A DNA stretch of 64,000 nucleotides from Bacteroidota bacterium (GTDB taxonomy: Bacteria; Bacteroidota; Bacteroidia; JACPRZ01), in NCBI GenBank assembly GCA_016193485.1, contig JACPRZ010000043.1, positions 160,944 through 224,943 of the forward strand. Reading direction: 5' to 3'. Shown in pieces: positions 39,698 to 49,618 of this stretch; within the stretch, counting starts at the first letter, position 1; each line of letters starts with the position of its first letter. The translations under genes and the position numbers were made by a program. The notes under the pieces are model-generated. The model saw only the letters and a program-made list of their open reading frames with translations. It had not been told where the DNA came from and ran no database searches.

Positions 39698-42094
39698 TTA
39701 TTTTTTATTTTGTTTTACTTTTTCCTGTTCTGTTCCGTTTTCAGGTAGTGCGGCACCCGGGCCATAACCATAATTGTAACTGTAGTTATACCTGTAATAG
39801 CGGTAATAATACCGTGATTTGGATACTTTAACGTTATTTAAAATAAAGGAAATATTACCGAATTTATTTTCTTCCTGGAACATATGTGTGGCTGTAATAT
39901 CATTTTTGTTGGTCTTTCTTGCGTTAATTATAAAAACATTGATGTCGCTGAACCGCATCAGGATCTGAGAGTCGGTAATCATTCCAATAGGCGGGGTATC
40001 AAATATAATATAATCATAATCGTTTTTTAAATTTGCAATAAGTGAGGGAATAAGGGATGATAAAATCAATTCTGAAGGATTTGGAGGTATGGTCCCGACA
40101 GGAATTACATCAAGATTGTCGATACCGGATTGAAGAATCACATCCCTGTAGGATGATCTTCCTGTAAGATACTGGCTTATGCCTGTTTCTGCAGATAAAT
40201 TAAAAATTCCGTTCATCTTCGGTTTATGCAGATCCATTTCAAGGATAATGGTTTTTTTGTTTGCTTTGGCGAGTATTATTCCGAGATTTATTACGCAGAA
40301 GGTCTTGCCCTCATTCGGGTTATGAGACGTGATCAATACTACTTTTGATTTCTGGTCGGCAGCAAAAAATTCAAGATTGGTTCGTATAAGGCGGTATGAT
40401 TCCGATATCAGTGCGCGCGGGTTTGCATCGACAATCAGGTATTTATTCCCGGCATCCTTAAAATGAGGCACATCGCCCAGGATGGGAAGCCGTGTAATGT
40501 TTTTCAATTCCTCAGCCGATTCAACGGTGTCAAAGAAAAGATACCTGAAAAAAGTAAGGATCAGCGACAGAATAAAACCGGCAGCAACGAATGAAATCGT
40601 TATCCGTTCGTAGTTGGGTTCAACGGTTCCGGTTACATAAGGCGATTCAATGACTTTGGTTTCGGGAATAATTCCTGCCCTGGCTATTATGGTATTCGCC
40701 CTTCGTTCAAGAAGGTAGGAATAGAGTTTTTCATTTACATCCAGTTTTCTTTTGAAGTCCACCATCTGGCGTTGTGTGCGGGGTAGGCCGCGCAATAAGG
40801 ATTCATAATAGGCAATCTGCTCCTGGAGGGCTTTCCGTTTGTTATTTATCGCAGTTTTTGTGTTTTCCATATACTCAAGCAGGTCATCCTTCAACAATTG
40901 TATCTTATTGTTGATTTCAAGGTTGGTTAAATTCTTTTCGGGCACATCGAAACTTATACCGTTTTTAATAATGTGAAGTGTGTAAAGCTCATTAAGTGTT
41001 TTTTTAAGGTAATCATCTCCTTCCAGGATATAAAGTGACGGGGGAAGCAGGTTTTCACTCTCTTCAGTGGTCAGGTATTTTTCAAGCGCCTCAAGCGTCT
41101 GAAGTTGCAAGTGCATTTTCCGGTCTGCCGATTCATGTTCAATGAGTTTGGTGAAATATTCATTCTCTTCGCGCGTAAGGTCGAGGATGGCGCGTTCATT
41201 TTTATACAGATCCAGTTCTTTTTCAATATCGTTGAGGATCATGACCACCTCTTCCATTTGACGGTCAATATATAGTATTGTATTTTCATTGATCTGGATT
41301 TGAGATAGTATCGTATAATCAATGTACTCTTTGGACAGAGTATCTAAAAAGGCAACCGCCCGGTCCGGGATTTCATCTTTGAGGGTTATTTCCATGATGG
41401 CCGACCATTCCGAATTGGATACGTCAAGTCCGGATTGAAATTTGTTAATGAGAAAAGAATGATCATGGCATTTAAACATGTAATTAATCTGTCCGAGATT
41501 TTCAATATTATCCCGTGTGATGTAATTGGGATTTTTGTCAATATGAAGATTATAATCACTGCTTACCAGAGGGGATCCGAAAACACCTGCTCTTTTAACA
41601 GTCACTCCCTTTTTTTCATATACTATTTCATACCTGAGGGTGTCAACTATTTTCAGATGAAATTCGTTTTCATAAAATGCCGGAGAATAGATAACCGCAT
41701 TAACACTGAAAGGTAGATACCTGTAAATTTCCTGTGTTTTCAGGCGACCGATAATGTAATAAGAAACGTCCAGGTTAAGTTTCGTAATGGTGGCGGACAA
41801 CAGGTTAGCCGATTTAATTACCCTCATCTGGTTGACCACATCCTGGTACGCTTCGTAATAACCCAACGACCGGTACAGCGGTTCCTGGTAGCGGTATGTT
41901 TCAAACGATTTAAGCAGTATCTGCGTCTTTGCTTCGTAGATCTCGGTGAGTTTACCTTTGTAGATATAACCCACCGCCCACATAGCGGCTGGGAATACCA
42001 GGAAGAAATACCAGTTTTTAAGGAAGATGCGCCACAGTCCTTTAATATCCTCGGTTGTGATAATTGATTTCGGTTTTCGGGTCATCGACAACAT
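39698..42094 (-). CDS. polysaccharide biosynthesis tyrosine autokinase (Wzc-like)
   Basis: Wzz-like N-terminal region, Walker A 'SHNPNEGKTFCVINLG', 'TIILEMDLHKPKMN', C-terminal Tyr cluster 'YYYRYYRYNYSYNYGYG'. Confidence 0.92.
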   Translation of the reverse strand: MLSMTRKPKSIITTEDIKGLWRIFLKNWYFFLVFPAAMWAVGYIYKGKLTEIYEAKTQILLKSFETYRYQEPLYRSLGYYEAYQDVVNQMRVIKSANLLSATITKLNLDVSYYIIGRLKTQEIYRYLPFSVNAVIYSPAFYENEFHLKIVDTLRYEIVYEKKGVTVKRAGVFGSPLVSSDYNLHIDKNPNYITRDNIENLGQINYMFKCHDHSFLINKFQSGLDVSNSEWSAIMEITLKDEIPDRAVAFLDTLSKEYIDYTILSQIQINENTILYIDRQMEEVVMILNDIEKELDLYKNERAILDLTREENEYFTKLIEHESADRKMHLQLQTLEALEKYLTTEESENLLPPSLYILEGDDYLKKTLNELYTLHIIKNGISFDVPEKNLTNLEINNKIQLLKDDLLEYMENTKTAINNKRKALQEQIAYYESLLRGLPRTQRQMVDFKRKLDVNEKLYSYLLERRANTIIARAGIIPETKVIESPYVTGTVEPNYERITISFVAAGFILSLILTFFRYLFFDTVESAEELKNITRLPILGDVPHFKDAGNKYLIVDANPRALISESYRLIRTNLEFFAADQKSKVVLITSHNPNEGKTFCVINLGIILAKANKKTIILEMDLHKPKMNGIFNLSAETGISQYLTGRSSYRDVILQSGIDNLDVIPVGTIPPNPSELILSSLIPSLIANLKNDYDYIIFDTPPIGMITDSQILMRFSDINVFIINARKTNKNDITATHMFQEENKFGNISFILNNVKVSKSRYYYRYYRYNYSYNYGYGPGAALPENGTEQEKVKQNKK

Positions 42095-42322
42095 TGTAAA
42101 AATTATTTTTTAAAGTTTAATGAATATGCTGTAAACCTTAACCTAACGGTCATATTATTAATTTTCGTATATTCGTCCCGATAGCCATCGGGATTCGTAA
42201 TTTGTAAATTTAATGCAAATGTAAGAAATTTTCCCAATCTGTTAAAATTAAGGAATATTTAATACCTATTTTTGCGAAGTTATACCTATTGTCCACATAA
42301 CCATGATAAATTTTTTATTCTT

Positions 42323-45300
42323 ATGAAAAAAATTACCTTTACCCTGCCTCTTTTACTTTACCTTGGTCTTTGCCTACCCGTGTTGGACGCTTCCGGCCAA
42401 GCCGTTAATGCTTTCCAGACAACCGGTGGAAGCGGTACTCCCGCCAAAGGCAATTGGACCGATGCTTCTATATGGGAACGTTGGGATGGAGGTTCGTGGT
42501 TACCTGCCGGCACCTACCCGACTTCATCGCGTGAAGAAATTTATATCCGTGCCGGTGATACCGTAACTTTTAACTCTTCACTTTCCGTTGACCAAATGGA
42601 AGTTGAGGGGTCCGCGCAGTTGACAATAAACGGTAGTATTACCATGACCGTTGCCAATCACGCATCGCAGGATTTTCTTAACAGCGGAGAAGTCATCAAT
42701 AACGGCACAATAGCAGTGGCTTCAAGCGCAACATTTGACAATAATGCCGTATTCACAAATTCAGGAACCACTACTTTGAATAACACAACAACCTTTAATA
42801 ACAGCGGTGGTACTACTTTCAGCAATTCGGGTACTTTCACTATTCAGAATACAAGCACTTTTAATAATTATGCATCCATTGATAATACCGGTGGAACTAT
42901 CGATATCAATACGAGTGGCGTATTTGCAAATTATGCCGGTGGATCCTTTTCAACAGTAGGAACCGTAAACGTCAATTCAACCGGTAAATATCAACATGCG
43001 GATGTAACCGGTGGCACGATACCATCGCTTTCCTGGAATGCCGGATCCGAATGTGAAGTAACCGGTACCACCGCAACTGTTCCCGGAGGACTCGGACAGA
43101 CCTTTCAGAATTTTACATGGAACTGCGCTTCCCAGAGCAGTACTATAAATCTGGCAGGAGCGCTGGCAGCAATTAACGGTAATTTTTCATTCAAAAATTC
43201 CGGCTCAAGCCAGATATTGTACCTGGCACAGACCACTTCTCCCACAATTAATATTGGAGGTGATCTGAATTTTCAAACGGCTTCAACGGATGGAGACCAA
43301 CTTTGCTTCACCAGAACAGGAAGCCCAACGGTAAACATATCCGGCAATTTAAATATTACCGGTGGCAGTTCAGCAATGACCTTACATTTCTGCCGGGATG
43401 GCGGTGGTTCTCCGGTTGTAAATCTCACGGGGAATCTTAACCATTCTGCTAACACACAATTGGTTTTCACTCGAGGAATCGGTACCGCAACGTTGAATAT
43501 TTCGGGTAACATTACCGTTACTGCTAACAACTCCCAGAGAGTGTTCGAGTCCAGTTCAGGAGGAACCGGCAACATATACTTTGCCAATGCGGGTACTCAA
43601 AATTTGAATATAGCCCACACGGGTACTTTCTATGGCAATATTAATTTTTATGTCAATGCAAACAGCACGGTTGATTTTTCGGGCTCAACCACAAATATTC
43701 TCCAAAGCACCACTAATGGCGCAACCGATTTCACTGTCTCAACCGATGGCATCCTCGTTACAGGAACCAAGATTATTACAACTGTAAGCGGTACCAGTTT
43801 TACCCTGTCATCAGGTGCAACCTTGAACACCTCCAATGCAAGTGGCGTGAATTCAACCATTGTTTCTGGCGGAACGCGAACTATTAATGATGCCGCTAAC
43901 TATATCATCAATGGCGCTTCCACCGGTTTTGCCAGTTGGCCGACCAATATTATGAACAACCTGACTATAGGAAGCGCAACTACTCTTGACAGGAATATTG
44001 AAATTAATGGCGGCTTTACCAATAACTCGACTTTCAACGCAAGCACTTTTACCGTAAACCTTGCGGGTGATTTTTCCAACAATAGTGTTTTTAATGCAAA
44101 TACAGGCAAATTTATTTTTGACGGTTCAACCGCTCAATCCATCATGGGTTCACCTACATTTTATGATATTACGGTAAACAATTCGGGTGTGGCGACACCG
44201 GTTACAGCAACCGGTTCCAGCATTACCCGTGTACTGGATATTCAGGACGGACAACTTGCAACGGGCGGTAACCTCACATTGCTATCAGCCAGTTCGGGAA
44301 CCGCAGCCATAGATGACCTTTCGGATGGCACGCCTGACAGCCCCCCCATTTCCGGTGTTATCATCGCACAGCGATATATCAGCGAACAAAACCCGGGCTG
44401 GTATATGCTTGCATCTCCGGAGACCGATGCAATATTTGAGGATTGGAACCTGGAATTTTATATGAGCGGCTTTACCGGAACAGATGATCCGGGAAGTAAT
44501 TTCCAATCGGTTGTTGCATGGGATGAAGCCAACCAGCAATATACCGATATGAATGCCGTTTCACCGTATCCTACCAATACTTCCAACACCATCACAAGCA
44601 GCGCTGACCAATCAGGTTATTTCTGTTACATCGGAAATGACGGGATCGGTACCAATATGCCTAAAACGCTTACACTCACCGGTACCGCTAAGACAGGTGG
44701 TTTTACAATATCCGGGCTTACACGTACTGCCGGAACCTACCCTGGCTGGCACATGCTGGGTAACCCGTGGGCAGGTCCGTTCCGGTGGGGCAGGGCTTAT
44801 AATAATGGCGGGACAAGCAACATCAGTGCAACGGCAAAAAGGCAGAATAGTGCCGGATCCTATGTAGATATGGTGGCTGGCGGTGCCGATACCCTTGTGG
44901 CTTCAGGTGAAGCATTCTGGGTGGAAGCCACCAGTGGAGGAGCAGCGCTCGAATTCCAGGAAAACGATAAAGTGGCAACCGGATCGGATACCTATAATAA
45001 CAAACATACCGGCTCACTGGTTCCTTTTAAAATCACCTTAAAGCAAGGCAGTTATTATGATGCTCCGCTTCAGATTTATTTCACCGACAATCATCTTGGA
45101 ATCCCGGTTTCAAGGAATTATGATAGTGGTCTTGATGCCATGAAATTCACCAATGCCTATTACTATGAAAATCTGGCGGCAGTGGTAGGTGGTAATAATG
45201 TTTCAACAAATTTTATCCCCGATTCGGTCGGACCTATTACCGTACCATTAAGATTCTGGAAAGAATTCCCGGCAGGTTCCACAAAATCTTATTCCCTTAT

Positions 45301-48262
45301 TTTTTCAAACGTTGCTGAAGCCACTGCTAACAACAAATGCCTGATTTTCGAGGACACGAAGGCAGGTGTAAGTTTTCTGTTGAGGAATGATACCACTTAT
45401 ACCGTATCAATGAAAGATACTACCTATACACCCCGTTTTTTCCTTAATGTCAGAAATGTAATTACTTCAATTACTACTGACCCGTCTTGCACAAATGGTA
45501 CCCAGGGCTCCGTTATTGCGCAAGGATACGGAAGCGGCCCGTTTGATTACCTCTGGAAAGACGAGGGGGGTGATACGGTGCGTTATATGACTGCTGTAAC
45601 AACCGATACATTGGGAAAAATATCTGCCGGTGTTTATTTCCTGACCGTTACCAACAATGGTTCATGCGGGACTGCTACCACTCACTTCGCCATTACCGAT
45701 ACAACAAATACCCTGGACTTTACTTCAATGAATACCGATGTTGACTGTTACGGAAATGCTACCGGAAGTATTACCATTACTCCATCCAGTGGAACCATTC
45801 CCTATACCTATAACTGGTCAAATGGATTTACAGGAAACGCCAATGCCGGCCTGGCAGAAGGAACATATTCAGTAACATTATCTGATTCTGCCGGATGCCG
45901 TATAATCCAGCCATTTACCATTGTTCAACCCTCTCAGTTAACCGCTTCTACCTCTGTCAACCCGACAGCATGTTACGGTTCACCTGACGGTGTGGCCGGA
46001 ATTTTTGTTGCCGGAGGAACCCCCCCCTATGAATACGAATGGTCAACAGGGGATACCCTGAATTATATTTCAGATCAATTATCCGGAACATACACCGTAA
46101 CAGTAACGGATGCGCGTAACTGCGATCTCCAGCGGGTACTGACCGTATTACAACCTGATTCCATCAATATTACCGGGGTAATTAATCATGTATCCTGCAC
46201 CGGTAATCTTGACGGCTCTGTGAATGTTACAGTAACGGGAAGTATTCCACCCTATACTTTTTACTGGCCTGATGGCAGTGATGCGGAAGACATCAACAAC
46301 CTTGGACCCGGAAATTACACACTTGAAGTCACCGACTCAAACTATTGCATGAAATCTGCCACATTCACGATCACTGAACCTGCCCCCCTCACAATCTTAT
46401 CAGCGAATATTACAGATATATCCTGTAATGGCGCGGGTGATGGCTCCATTGATATCAATTTTTCGGGTGGCACCGGTCCTTACGGATTCCTCTGGTCCGA
46501 TAATTCTACCACCGAGGATATTGCCGGACTACAATCCGATACCTTTACGGTAACCGTCACTGACAATAATAACTGCACGACTGCTTCACCTTATTATATC
46601 ATTGTTGAACCCGTTGCAATAACAACATCCGTTAATACCGTAAACAATCTTTGCAACGGTGATTCTGCCGGATCTGCCGATATTACCGCTTTAGGAGGCA
46701 CTGGCTCTTTGTCGTTTATATGGTCAAGCGGTGAAATAACAGAAGATATTTCCGGAAAACCTGCCGGTAATTACTCAATTACGGTCACCGATATTAATTC
46801 ATGTTCAGCCATTCAACCAGTTACTATTACCGAACCTCCTGCAATTACTGCTGCACTGAATAAAAGCAACATTTCCTGCTTCGGGTATGGTGATGGTGCA
46901 ATTGATCTGACAGCCACCGGTGGTACAGGCGCATATACCTACACCTGGTCCAACAGCGCAACGACCGAAGACATTTCCGGTCTTGCAACTGGAAATTATA
47001 CCGTTACGGTTGCCGACAACAATAATTGCACGCAATCGGGATCTGAAACCATTGGAGAGCCGGGCGCAATCACAGCCGCACTTGTAAAAACCGACATCAC
47101 ATGTTTTGGCAGTGGCGATGGGGCAATTGATTTAACGGTCAGCGGAGGAACAGGGGCCTACACCTACACCTGGTCCAACAGCGCAACAACCGAAGACATT
47201 TCCGGTCTTGCAACTGGAAATTATACCGTTACGGTTGCCGACAACAATAATTGCACGCAATCGGGATCTGAAACCATTGGAGAGCCGGGCGCAATCACAG
47301 CCGCACTTGTAAAAGCACTTGTAAAAACCGATATTACATGTTTTGGCTATGGTGATGGTGCGATTGATCTGACGGTTAACGGAGGCACCGGAGCATATAC
47401 CTACACCTGGTCCAACAGCGCAACAACTGAAGACATTTCAGGTCTGGCGGCAGCAACGTTTACTGTTACTGTTGCGGATAATAATAACTGCACACAGACC
47501 GGTTCCGAAACCATTGCAGAGCCGGGTTCAATCGCAGTTACACTTTCAAAAACCGACATTACATGTTTTGGCTATGGTGATGGTGCGATTAATCTGACTG
47601 CCAGCGGTGGGACAGGCGCCTACACTTTCACCTGGTCCAACAGCGCAACGATCGAAGACATTTCAGGTCTTTCAGTCGGAATCTATACCGTTACCGTTGA
47701 AGACAATAATAACTGCACGCAGTCCGGTTCTGAAATAATATCTGAACCTGCTGAAGTTGTTGCCGGATTTTTGGTTAGTACCGACACCGTATTTATCAAC
47801 ATCAACGGCCAGGTTGATTTTACTAATACTTCAACCGGTGCGACAGGTTATTTATGGGATTTCGGTGACAGCGCTACCAGCGCTCTTACAAATCCGTCAC
47901 ATACGTACACTGACACAGGTGCTTTTACAGTAGTTCTTACGGCTTCTGATTCTAATAATTGTACCGGCTTTTATTCAATGCAGGTTGTGGCCGACTATCT
48001 TGTTTCAGTCGGTACGGCAGATCAAGGATTAATCCGCGCATACCTTGCCGGAGATAAATTACTGGTCATGTTCAAACTAAACCGCATGACCACCGCCTCA
48101 ATTGAAATTCTGAACTTTACAGGGCAGGAAGTTTATCGTATTTCCTCCGTTGAAGTATTTAATACACGGACTCAAGTCAATCTGGAGGTGTTACCAAAAG
48201 GGGCATATCTTGTACGGATTGTTACGCCTGAAAATGTCATAGTGCATAAATTCTTATATTAG
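42323..48262 (+). CDS. giant SprB-repeat surface adhesin-like protein with PKD and T9SS C-terminal domain
   Basis: N-terminal Asn/Thr beta-helix repeats, more than 8 SprB repeats 'CFGYGDGAIDLTATGGTGAYTYTWSN', PKD 'YLWDFGDSATSALTNPSHTY', C-terminal sorting domain. Confidence 0.9.
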   Translation: MKKITFTLPLLLYLGLCLPVLDASGQAVNAFQTTGGSGTPAKGNWTDASIWERWDGGSWLPAGTYPTSSREEIYIRAGDTVTFNSSLSVDQMEVEGSAQLTINGSITMTVANHASQDFLNSGEVINNGTIAVASSATFDNNAVFTNSGTTTLNNTTTFNNSGGTTFSNSGTFTIQNTSTFNNYASIDNTGGTIDINTSGVFANYAGGSFSTVGTVNVNSTGKYQHADVTGGTIPSLSWNAGSECEVTGTTATVPGGLGQTFQNFTWNCASQSSTINLAGALAAINGNFSFKNSGSSQILYLAQTTSPTINIGGDLNFQTASTDGDQLCFTRTGSPTVNISGNLNITGGSSAMTLHFCRDGGGSPVVNLTGNLNHSANTQLVFTRGIGTATLNISGNITVTANNSQRVFESSSGGTGNIYFANAGTQNLNIAHTGTFYGNINFYVNANSTVDFSGSTTNILQSTTNGATDFTVSTDGILVTGTKIITTVSGTSFTLSSGATLNTSNASGVNSTIVSGGTRTINDAANYIINGASTGFASWPTNIMNNLTIGSATTLDRNIEINGGFTNNSTFNASTFTVNLAGDFSNNSVFNANTGKFIFDGSTAQSIMGSPTFYDITVNNSGVATPVTATGSSITRVLDIQDGQLATGGNLTLLSASSGTAAIDDLSDGTPDSPPISGVIIAQRYISEQNPGWYMLASPETDAIFEDWNLEFYMSGFTGTDDPGSNFQSVVAWDEANQQYTDMNAVSPYPTNTSNTITSSADQSGYFCYIGNDGIGTNMPKTLTLTGTAKTGGFTISGLTRTAGTYPGWHMLGNPWAGPFRWGRAYNNGGTSNISATAKRQNSAGSYVDMVAGGADTLVASGEAFWVEATSGGAALEFQENDKVATGSDTYNNKHTGSLVPFKITLKQGSYYDAPLQIYFTDNHLGIPVSRNYDSGLDAMKFTNAYYYENLAAVVGGNNVSTNFIPDSVGPITVPLRFWKEFPAGSTKSYSLIFSNVAEATANNKCLIFEDTKAGVSFLLRNDTTYTVSMKDTTYTPRFFLNVRNVITSITTDPSCTNGTQGSVIAQGYGSGPFDYLWKDEGGDTVRYMTAVTTDTLGKISAGVYFLTVTNNGSCGTATTHFAITDTTNTLDFTSMNTDVDCYGNATGSITITPSSGTIPYTYNWSNGFTGNANAGLAEGTYSVTLSDSAGCRIIQPFTIVQPSQLTASTSVNPTACYGSPDGVAGIFVAGGTPPYEYEWSTGDTLNYISDQLSGTYTVTVTDARNCDLQRVLTVLQPDSINITGVINHVSCTGNLDGSVNVTVTGSIPPYTFYWPDGSDAEDINNLGPGNYTLEVTDSNYCMKSATFTITEPAPLTILSANITDISCNGAGDGSIDINFSGGTGPYGFLWSDNSTTEDIAGLQSDTFTVTVTDNNNCTTASPYYIIVEPVAITTSVNTVNNLCNGDSAGSADITALGGTGSLSFIWSSGEITEDISGKPAGNYSITVTDINSCSAIQPVTITEPPAITAALNKSNISCFGYGDGAIDLTATGGTGAYTYTWSNSATTEDISGLATGNYTVTVADNNNCTQSGSETIGEPGAITAALVKTDITCFGSGDGAIDLTVSGGTGAYTYTWSNSATTEDISGLATGNYTVTVADNNNCTQSGSETIGEPGAITAALVKALVKTDITCFGYGDGAIDLTVNGGTGAYTYTWSNSATTEDISGLAAATFTVTVADNNNCTQTGSETIAEPGSIAVTLSKTDITCFGYGDGAINLTASGGTGAYTFTWSNSATIEDISGLSVGIYTVTVEDNNNCTQSGSEIISEPAEVVAGFLVSTDTVFININGQVDFTNTSTGATGYLWDFGDSATSALTNPSHTYTDTGAFTVVLTASDSNNCTGFYSMQVVADYLVSVGTADQGLIRAYLAGDKLLVMFKLNRMTTASIEILNFTGQEVYRISSVEVFNTRTQVNLEVLPKGAYLVRIVTPENVIVHKFLY
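46865..47760 (+). repeat. tandem about 225-bp SprB repeat units, two nearly identical
   Basis: GCACTTGTAAAA at 47078-47089 and 47303-47314 (225-bp period); about 150 bp upstream of each nearly identical; extra 12-bp tandem copy at 47315-47326. Confidence 0.85.
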
Positions 48263-48311
48263 CACGGTTTTTAATAATATTCCTCGTACATTTGTGCGAA
48301 TTATTTCGGTC

Positions 48312-48524
48312 ATGAAAACATTCACCATTTATCTTTTACTTTTTATATTGGTTAGCAGCATGGTTTATGCGGGTGGTCCCCCTCCTCCGCCCGGTAATCC
48401 TCCTTGCTGGCCGCCAAATGCATGCGTTCCGATTGATAATGGTATTTTGATCCTGCTTTTTTCAGGGTTGATGTTCGGGGTTAAAAAAATATATGATTTT
48501 ACCATCCGGAAAAACAGAGAATAA
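48312..48524 (+). CDS. tiny putative exosortase substrate with PID-type C-terminal sorting signal
   Basis: signal peptide ..SSMVYA, GGPPPPPGNPPCWPPNACV, then PIDNG + hydrophobic ILILLFSGLMFG + basic KK..RKNRE; immediately upstream of the exosortase. Confidence 0.8.
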   Translation: MKTFTIYLLLFILVSSMVYAGGPPPPPGNPPCWPPNACVPIDNGILILLFSGLMFGVKKIYDFTIRKNRE

Positions 48525-48526
48525 TT

Positions 48527-49099
48527 TTGCATGTGGGATTCCTTTCCAACTCTCTTGCGCTTCGTACGGAACTGCCAAAGTATAAACCGCTGATTAAATT
48601 CCTGTCTATTTTTTCATTCCTGTATCTTTCTTGGTATCTCGCATACGAATTTTACCTGCATCCTTTTGGTCAGCCGGATGAAGCGGTATTATCCAATTCC
48701 GCAATAATCTCGGCAGGAATCCTGAAATTACTCGGTTTTGACATTGAGACGGGCAGGGAGTACGGGTGGTATTTTATTGCGGCTGACGGAGGTAGCCCTA
48801 TATGGGTGGCGGAACAATGCAACGGATTGAAATTGTTTGTACTTTTTACGTTGTTTATTATCGCTTTTCCCGGAAAAATCATAACGAAATTTATTTTTAT
48901 TCCCATCGGAGTTATAACTATTCATTTTCTTAACTGCATCCGTATTGTTGTGCTGGTCATCATTGCCCGGTACGCTCCCGGCTGGATGGAATTCAACCAT
49001 ACCTATACTTTCACCTTGCTGGTGTACGCATATATTTTCTTTCTTTGGTATATATGGGTAAAACACTATTCACTTTACCGGAAACCGGACATCCGATAA
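48527..49099 (+). CDS. exosortase/archaeosortase family transpeptidase
   Basis: multi-pass membrane protein with candidate catalytic Cys 'WVAEQCNGLKL', Arg 'FLNCIRIVVL' and His 'FNHTYTF'. Confidence 0.88.
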   Translation: MHVGFLSNSLALRTELPKYKPLIKFLSIFSFLYLSWYLAYEFYLHPFGQPDEAVLSNSAIISAGILKLLGFDIETGREYGWYFIAADGGSPIWVAEQCNGLKLFVLFTLFIIAFPGKIITKFIFIPIGVITIHFLNCIRIVVLVIIARYAPGWMEFNHTYTFTLLVYAYIFFLWYIWVKHYSLYRKPDIR

Positions 49100-49102
49100 T
49101 AT

Positions 49103-49618
49103 TTGCGTTACGGAATGACTAAACTGCAGAAATATTCAGTTCTTACCGGATTAATCACTATCCTGATTGGTGCCGGTTTTACAAAGGAATTTATTTTTAA
49201 GGACATCAATGCGAAAACCGGTTATACGGGGAATCCGGAGTACTCTGATAAAACACATAATAACCCTGCAGATTTTTTTAATTTTATCATCACGGACAAC
49301 AGTTACACCTTTAAATGGGTATTTACCGCCCTGTTTATTCTTTTGTTCCTTGCATTGTCCGGATTAATTTTGTTCCTGATTACAGGTGAAAAAAGATATA
49401 TATTTTTCCTGGCGGGATTTTATTGCATTTTTATTTTTATTGCCGGGGTACTTGTCTTAACAGGTCTTTTTTCGGGATATTACCGGATCTTTTATAAACC
49501 CACCCATGCCTTGATTGAAGTTCTCCAGTCACCGGTACCGGTTTTGATTTTTATTCTATTATTTTTTTCAACAGGAAAAGCCGGTCAACGGGAAATATCC
49601 CGAACCCACCGTGGTTAG
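49103..49618 (+). CDS. exosortase-associated multi-pass membrane protein
   Basis: four hydrophobic segments, 4 nt after the exosortase stop; ATG at 49115. Confidence 0.65.
   Translation: MRYGMTKLQKYSVLTGLITILIGAGFTKEFIFKDINAKTGYTGNPEYSDKTHNNPADFFNFIITDNSYTFKWVFTALFILLFLALSGLILFLITGEKRYIFFLAGFYCIFIFIAGVLVLTGLFSGYYRIFYKPTHALIEVLQSPVPVLIFILLFFSTGKAGQREISRTHRG

Follow-up and report, generated by a model that had tools for sequence, protein, structure and literature searches.

A compact exosortase locus of predicted XrtX type in a Bacteroidota bacterium and its small candidate substrate with a conserved cysteine pair

Background

The exosortase X system is known, catalogued by NCBIfam and common in Bacteroidia, and it comprises an exosortase (XrtX, NF046081), a protein with a PID-type sorting signal (PID_CTERM, NF046080) and an XrtX-associated protein (NF046082). 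The locus described here has the same three genes in the same order and the same type of sorting signal, PID, but the exosortase and partner score below the curated cut-offs and the PID model misses a cysteine pair. A search of the open-access literature returned no mention of XrtX or PID-CTERM and no experiment on any XrtX system, and this catalogued type of enzyme system is apparently unstudied. A related exosortase with an adjacent homologous partner, XrtF, is found in another member of the Bacteroidota with T9SS, Flavobacterium johnsoniae (Fjoh_1448-Fjoh_1449). Deletion of XrtF or of the adjacent partner leads to the absence of zorbs, less biofilm and loss of surface colonisation, as in T9SS mutants (PMC10936215), and the targets of XrtF have been reported as unknown (PMC12188702). 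Mutants in the exosortase CrtB lose adhesion to polysaccharide, CrtB being needed for cell-polysaccharide adhesion (PMC12188702).

More distant systems show further likenesses. The PEP-CTERM/XrtA (EpsH) and cyanoexosortase B systems have a tripartite signal, a Cys-Arg-His enzyme and polysaccharide genes nearby, a Wzc-like kinase among them, but they handle many large and varied substrates, whereas a single tiny substrate is encoded at the XrtX locus, along with a T9SS cargo. Archaeosortase A of Haloferax volcanii belongs to the same superfamily; it cleaves its substrate, to which a lipid is attached at the C terminus, and resolution of a Cys thioester by an amine is the proposed step (PMC7157517); unlike the XrtX locus, it works on a PGF signal and on S-layer and other large substrates. 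The MYXO-CTERM signal also places Cys in a motif ahead of a helix and basic tail, but myxosortase is an unrelated CPBP protease, and its dozens of substrates have one invariant Cys.

In this study, a window of 64,000 nucleotides (the whole stretch of DNA analysed, to which all positions refer) from contig JACPRZ010000043.1 of a Bacteroidota bacterium was investigated, focusing on a three-gene exosortase locus, its relatives and its neighbourhood.

Gene anatomy and family assignment

The three genes lie on the + strand within positions 48312-49618. ORF1, the putative PID-CTERM substrate gene (48312..48524, ATG start, 70 aa), is followed after 2 nt by ORF2, the exosortase gene (48527..49099, TTG start, 190 aa). 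ORF3, encoding the XrtX-associated membrane protein (49103..49618, 171 aa), begins 3 nt after ORF2 when counted from TTG; ATG 49115 is likely to be its better start, with a gap of 15 nt from ORF2 and a product of 167 aa. The co-directional, closely packed ORFs of a preliminary description were exact in their coordinates, and as part of the best explanation the three genes would form one XrtX exosortase operon.

ORF2 scored above the cut-offs of exo_archaeo (TIGR04178; 51.9 bits, cut-off 23) and Pfam Exosortase_EpsH (PF09721; 26.1 bits, cut-off 25.7), which bears out the exosortase family first proposed for the 190-aa protein. Its best model was NCBIfam XrtX (169.1 bits, E 7e-50), the cut-off of 170 being narrowly missed by 0.9 bits, and that of ORF3 was the XrtX-associated protein (53.5 bits), with the cut-off of 75 missed by 21.5 bits. 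The PID-adjacent exosortases of genomes G064 (166.3) and G282 (168.4) also lie under the XrtX cut-off, as do relatives of ORF3 at loci L099 (50.8) and L094 (62.6), both adjoining XrtX, under that of NF046082, so the missed cut-offs look like tight thresholds. In a maximum-likelihood tree, ORF2 fell on the XrtX side, away from XrtF, on a branch supported at 100/99 and recovered in 100% of bootstrap trees. Best model and tree together support ORF2 as an exosortase of the XrtX type, an assignment at first raised only as a possibility. ORF2 also passed the cut-off of the XrtF model (TIGR04128; 92.4 bits, cut-off 90), 77 bits below its own XrtX score; three clear XrtF proteins reached 204-243 bits. 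Despite that passed cut-off, an identity as XrtF was ruled out by the 77-bit difference and the placement in the XrtX clade. No PID gene was adjacent in the XrtF loci compared here, and ORF3 gave no match at E<=1 to the XrtF partner model TIGR04127. The XrtX and XrtF partner families are nevertheless distant homologues at an hhalign probability of 96% (E 7e-9), a value to be read with some caution in hydrophobic proteins.

The candidate catalytic motifs singled out at the start were present in ORF2, namely EQCNGL with C98 (48818-48820), NCIRI with R139 (48941-48943) and NHTYTF with H158 (48998-49000), all on the + strand. All three residues were invariant in 48 homologues and again in another set, of 59 sequences. 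AlphaFold modelled XrtX confidently, with a pLDDT of 90, and a model of ORF3 showed a helical membrane protein (pLDDT 88). Searches of the PDB returned no relative of XrtX by sequence and none of XrtX or ORF3 by fold.

The candidate substrate and its cysteine pair

ORF1 has the layout originally read from it, all on the + strand: a predicted Sec signal peptide (residues 1-20, 48312..48371) with basic N terminus, hydrophobic core and VYA/GG site, a predicted mature peptide of 22 residues (GGPPPPPGNPPCWPPNACVPID, residues 21-42, 48372..48437), and a tripartite sorting signal of PID, hydrophobic helix and basic tail (48429..48521). Its PID-type signal, as first suggested, was recognized by NF046080 at residues 39-62 (29.8 bits, cut-off 26), and the gene adjoins XrtX. 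Just before PID lies the pair C32-WPPNA-C38 (48405..48425, + strand), which is kept in relatives.

In the 91 relatives for which a cleavage site could be predicted, the median length of the predicted mature peptide was 21 aa; these lengths depend on where a simple rule puts the signal-peptidase cut. Among 92 distinct substrates encoded near XrtX, these segments were rich in Pro and Gly and usually bore one charge, the D of PID. The number of cysteines was exactly two in 88 of the 92 and zero in 4, and never odd. They form a C-x(3-7)-C motif directly ahead of PID, most commonly CWPPPC and then I/V-PIDGG, with the second Cys 2-3 residues ahead of PID; the motif is N-terminal to, and thus outside, the 25-residue NCBIfam PID model. 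At the genus level, two cysteines were present within 20 residues before PID in 39 of 45 genera and none in 4, the remaining two having an odd count that stems from a Cys assigned to the signal peptide. The always even number suggests a disulfide loop, and the two cysteines of ORF1 probably form one.

The cysteines might instead be lipidated, in which case the lipid and not a C-terminal conjugate would anchor the peptide. The position of the second Cys close to PID would suit this, and in MYXO-CTERM the invariant Cys is needed for cleavage and its lipidation has been proposed (PMC11980579). A count of two or zero fits a disulfide pair better, however, and XrtX-family enzymes also occur in genomes whose PID proteins lack Cys, so that lipidation is regarded as very improbable here.

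A set of 40 PID proteins not adjoining XrtX was nearly all Cys-less in this segment, with a pair in a few. Entries L224-L263 represent a second PID-CTERM class without Cys, mostly encoded away from XrtX and often present as one of two to five copies in a genome. One genome (G127, locus L246) has a clear XrtF (204 bits) with no PID gene near it and encodes elsewhere a Cys-less PID-CTERM protein (...PPPPPPGLPIDGGVLFLFISGIILGVKKLKKN), which is a candidate XrtF substrate.

Distribution and number of substrates

The source genome (4.0 Mb, 92% complete) encodes one exosortase and one PID-CTERM protein, both in the same operon. Four more PIDxG motifs were found genome-wide; they have no hydrophobic tail, are not sorting signals and were thus ruled out as further PID-CTERM proteins, and the one-substrate system envisaged at the outset stands for this genome. 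In the Bacteroidia sample, 144 genomes gave a PID match; a single copy was the commonest state (107 genomes), and two to five copies occurred in 37. A broader range of substrates is nonetheless conceivable, in which XrtX would act on further, unrecognised proteins with other tails and ORF1 would be only the adjacent one. A classical PEP-CTERM exosortase acts on many proteins, and there are XrtX genomes with as many as five PID proteins. With one PID-CTERM match over the cut-off in the source genome, of which about 8% may be missing, we consider this rather improbable.

At E<=1e-10, 175 of 296 Bacteroidia genomes had a match to the XrtX family, some matches being XrtF, and 80 were over the XrtX cut-off. 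Co-occurrence with the T9SS marker SprA is only weakly informative, because 287 of the 296 genomes have SprA: XrtX occurred in 2 of the 9 SprA-negative genomes (p 0.03, kinship ignored), or, without those two, which are draft MAGs of 95% and 56% completeness, in 0 of 7 (p 0.002, kinship ignored). One XrtX (L153) lies on a contig labelled Candidatus Saccharibacteria that is probably mis-binned Bacteroidota DNA.

Promoter and neighbourhood

A TAnnTTTG element, which we take to be the Bacteroidota -7 promoter consensus, precedes ORF1 (TACATTTG, 48287..48294, + strand). Of 98 loci, 62 have it at a distance of 13-49 nt ahead of the PID start, against 5.5 expected from shuffles, and 4 have it upstream of XrtX. 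Judging by its conservation ahead of the PID gene, the genes for substrate, XrtX and partner are probably transcribed as an operon of their own, with the substrate gene first.

Upstream lies a + strand gene for a T9SS cargo protein of 1996 aa (42272..48262) with SprB repeats (PF13573), a PKD domain (PF18911) and a type A tail (PF18962, TIGR04183); on the same promoter evidence it is probably a separate transcription unit. Divergent from it, on the - strand, is a gene for a Wzc-type polysaccharide co-polymerase/tyrosine autokinase (39698..42094; TIGR01007 174.7 bits, PF02706, PF13807). This Wzc gene adjoins a DNA polymerase III subunit-like gene, not polysaccharide genes as in many relatives, and is one of two Wzc-type kinases over the cut-off in the source genome.

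Loci from 60 genera, one for each genus, were compared with XrtX setting the orientation. The partner adjoins XrtX in 44 of the 60 genera, a PID gene is near XrtX in 45 (adjacent in 36), and Wzc is upstream on the opposite strand in 31. A T9SS cargo lies directly upstream of PID and co-directional with it in 25 of the 45 genera. The initial remark that the system operates beside T9SS thus proved better than could be known from the one sequence, since the association of a cargo with the locus holds in different genera. In a larger set of 125 non-redundant XrtX loci, PID was adjacent to XrtX in 97 and the partner in 99; Wzc was present in 57 of 92 loci and glyA, often the next gene after, in 53 of 108. 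Three loci (L122, L126 and L132; family f10) differ in the genes around XrtX, share flanking genes with one another and encode PID proteins without Cys.

The promoter, the divergent Wzc beside the locus and the tiny, nearly uncharged ecto-peptide without a binding domain could all belong to a small membrane regulator, which would be cut to switch Wzc or polysaccharide export or to activate XrtX, and then released. However, the conservation of the Cys-Pro motif and of the tripartite signal is that of a substrate, and the 37 of 144 PID-positive genomes with 2-5 PID proteins agree better with substrates than with a single regulator; a regulatory peptide is therefore judged unlikely.

Proposed mechanism and role

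In the reading that we favour, with a probability of roughly 0.62, XrtX would cut ORF1 at PID and conjugate the peptide to an envelope lipid or glycan, with a role in the surface matrix. ORF1 would be exported by Sec, lose its signal peptide and stay anchored through its C-terminal helix in the inner membrane, while its two cysteines would close into a loop. Using Cys98 with His158 and Arg139, XrtX would cleave at or beside PID, bind the peptide of roughly 22 residues in a thioester and pass it, helped by the ORF3 protein, to an amine-bearing acceptor of the envelope, either a lipid or a glycan; such a transfer (transpeptidase) step is a proposal for bacterial exosortases in general. No acceptor-making gene is present within the ORF1-3 operon. 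The conjugate may then serve a cell-surface matrix together with Wzc-controlled polysaccharide and the adjoining T9SS cargo. The position of the peptide gene beside a T9SS surface protein and a polysaccharide-assembly gene suggests a part in the cohesion of the cell's surface coat. Adjacency of genes is not proof of joint function, and it is also from work on the superfamily, the XrtF phenotypes and the homology of the XrtX and XrtF partners that we infer a matrix role.

The linked T9SS cargo family

A T9SS type A tail (NCBIfam) is encoded by 50 of the 64 co-directional genes that immediately precede PID, as against 5 of 100 random other neighbours (Fisher p about 2e-23, kinship among loci ignored). 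When 35 loci with an upstream gene on the opposite strand are added, the tails number 50 of 99 (p about 8e-14). The source genome has roughly 151 T9SS type A tails, in line with the 5% background. In rearranged loci such as L104 and L125, the cargo and PID genes stay together, apart from XrtX and the partner.

These cargos have in common an unnamed domain of about 280-300 residues, delimited by alignment and genome search (44090..44983 in the window, + strand), without a match in Pfam or NCBIfam. It occurs about 1-6 times per genome, and about 21 of 26 genomes have their best match at the XrtX locus, among them G015, G171 and G277 from outside the query alignment; the test is partly circular, because the genomes were picked for XrtX and the query came largely from XrtX loci.

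Cargo and XrtX could be neighbours merely by sharing a surface-polysaccharide island, with no functional link. Both are surface-related, and the cargo is missing from about half of the loci. The specificity of the cargo family and the scarcity of T9SS tails among other neighbours speak against such an island, which remains a real but minority possibility in our estimation. An extension of our preferred reading to the whole family is equally tentative: in most genomes the sole product of this widespread Bacteroidota exosortase might be a disulfide-looped, proline-rich peptide of ~20 residues (CWPPPC-PID), carried on an envelope lipid or polysaccharide and anchoring or cross-linking a dedicated family of T9SS cargos and the polysaccharide under Wzc control. 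If so, two sorting systems, exosortase and T9SS, would be joined in one surface module. With a single candidate substrate of ~22 residues encoded beside the enzyme, direct mass spectrometry of the modified C terminus is feasible, and the Cys pair and linked cargo family are concrete, testable leads on the role of Bacteroidota exosortases. No description of the peptide with paired Cys, of the cargo family linked to the locus or of the conserved promoter was found in the open-access literature, which is weak evidence of novelty.

A second copy of the cargo domain in the source genome scored 270.6 bits, compared with 276.1 for the copy in the XrtX locus. It belongs to a 1261-residue open frame with a T9SS tail (L268, G000:C6), and the only PID gene of the genome lies elsewhere. 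Some members of the cargo-domain family carry a CCPTF motif.
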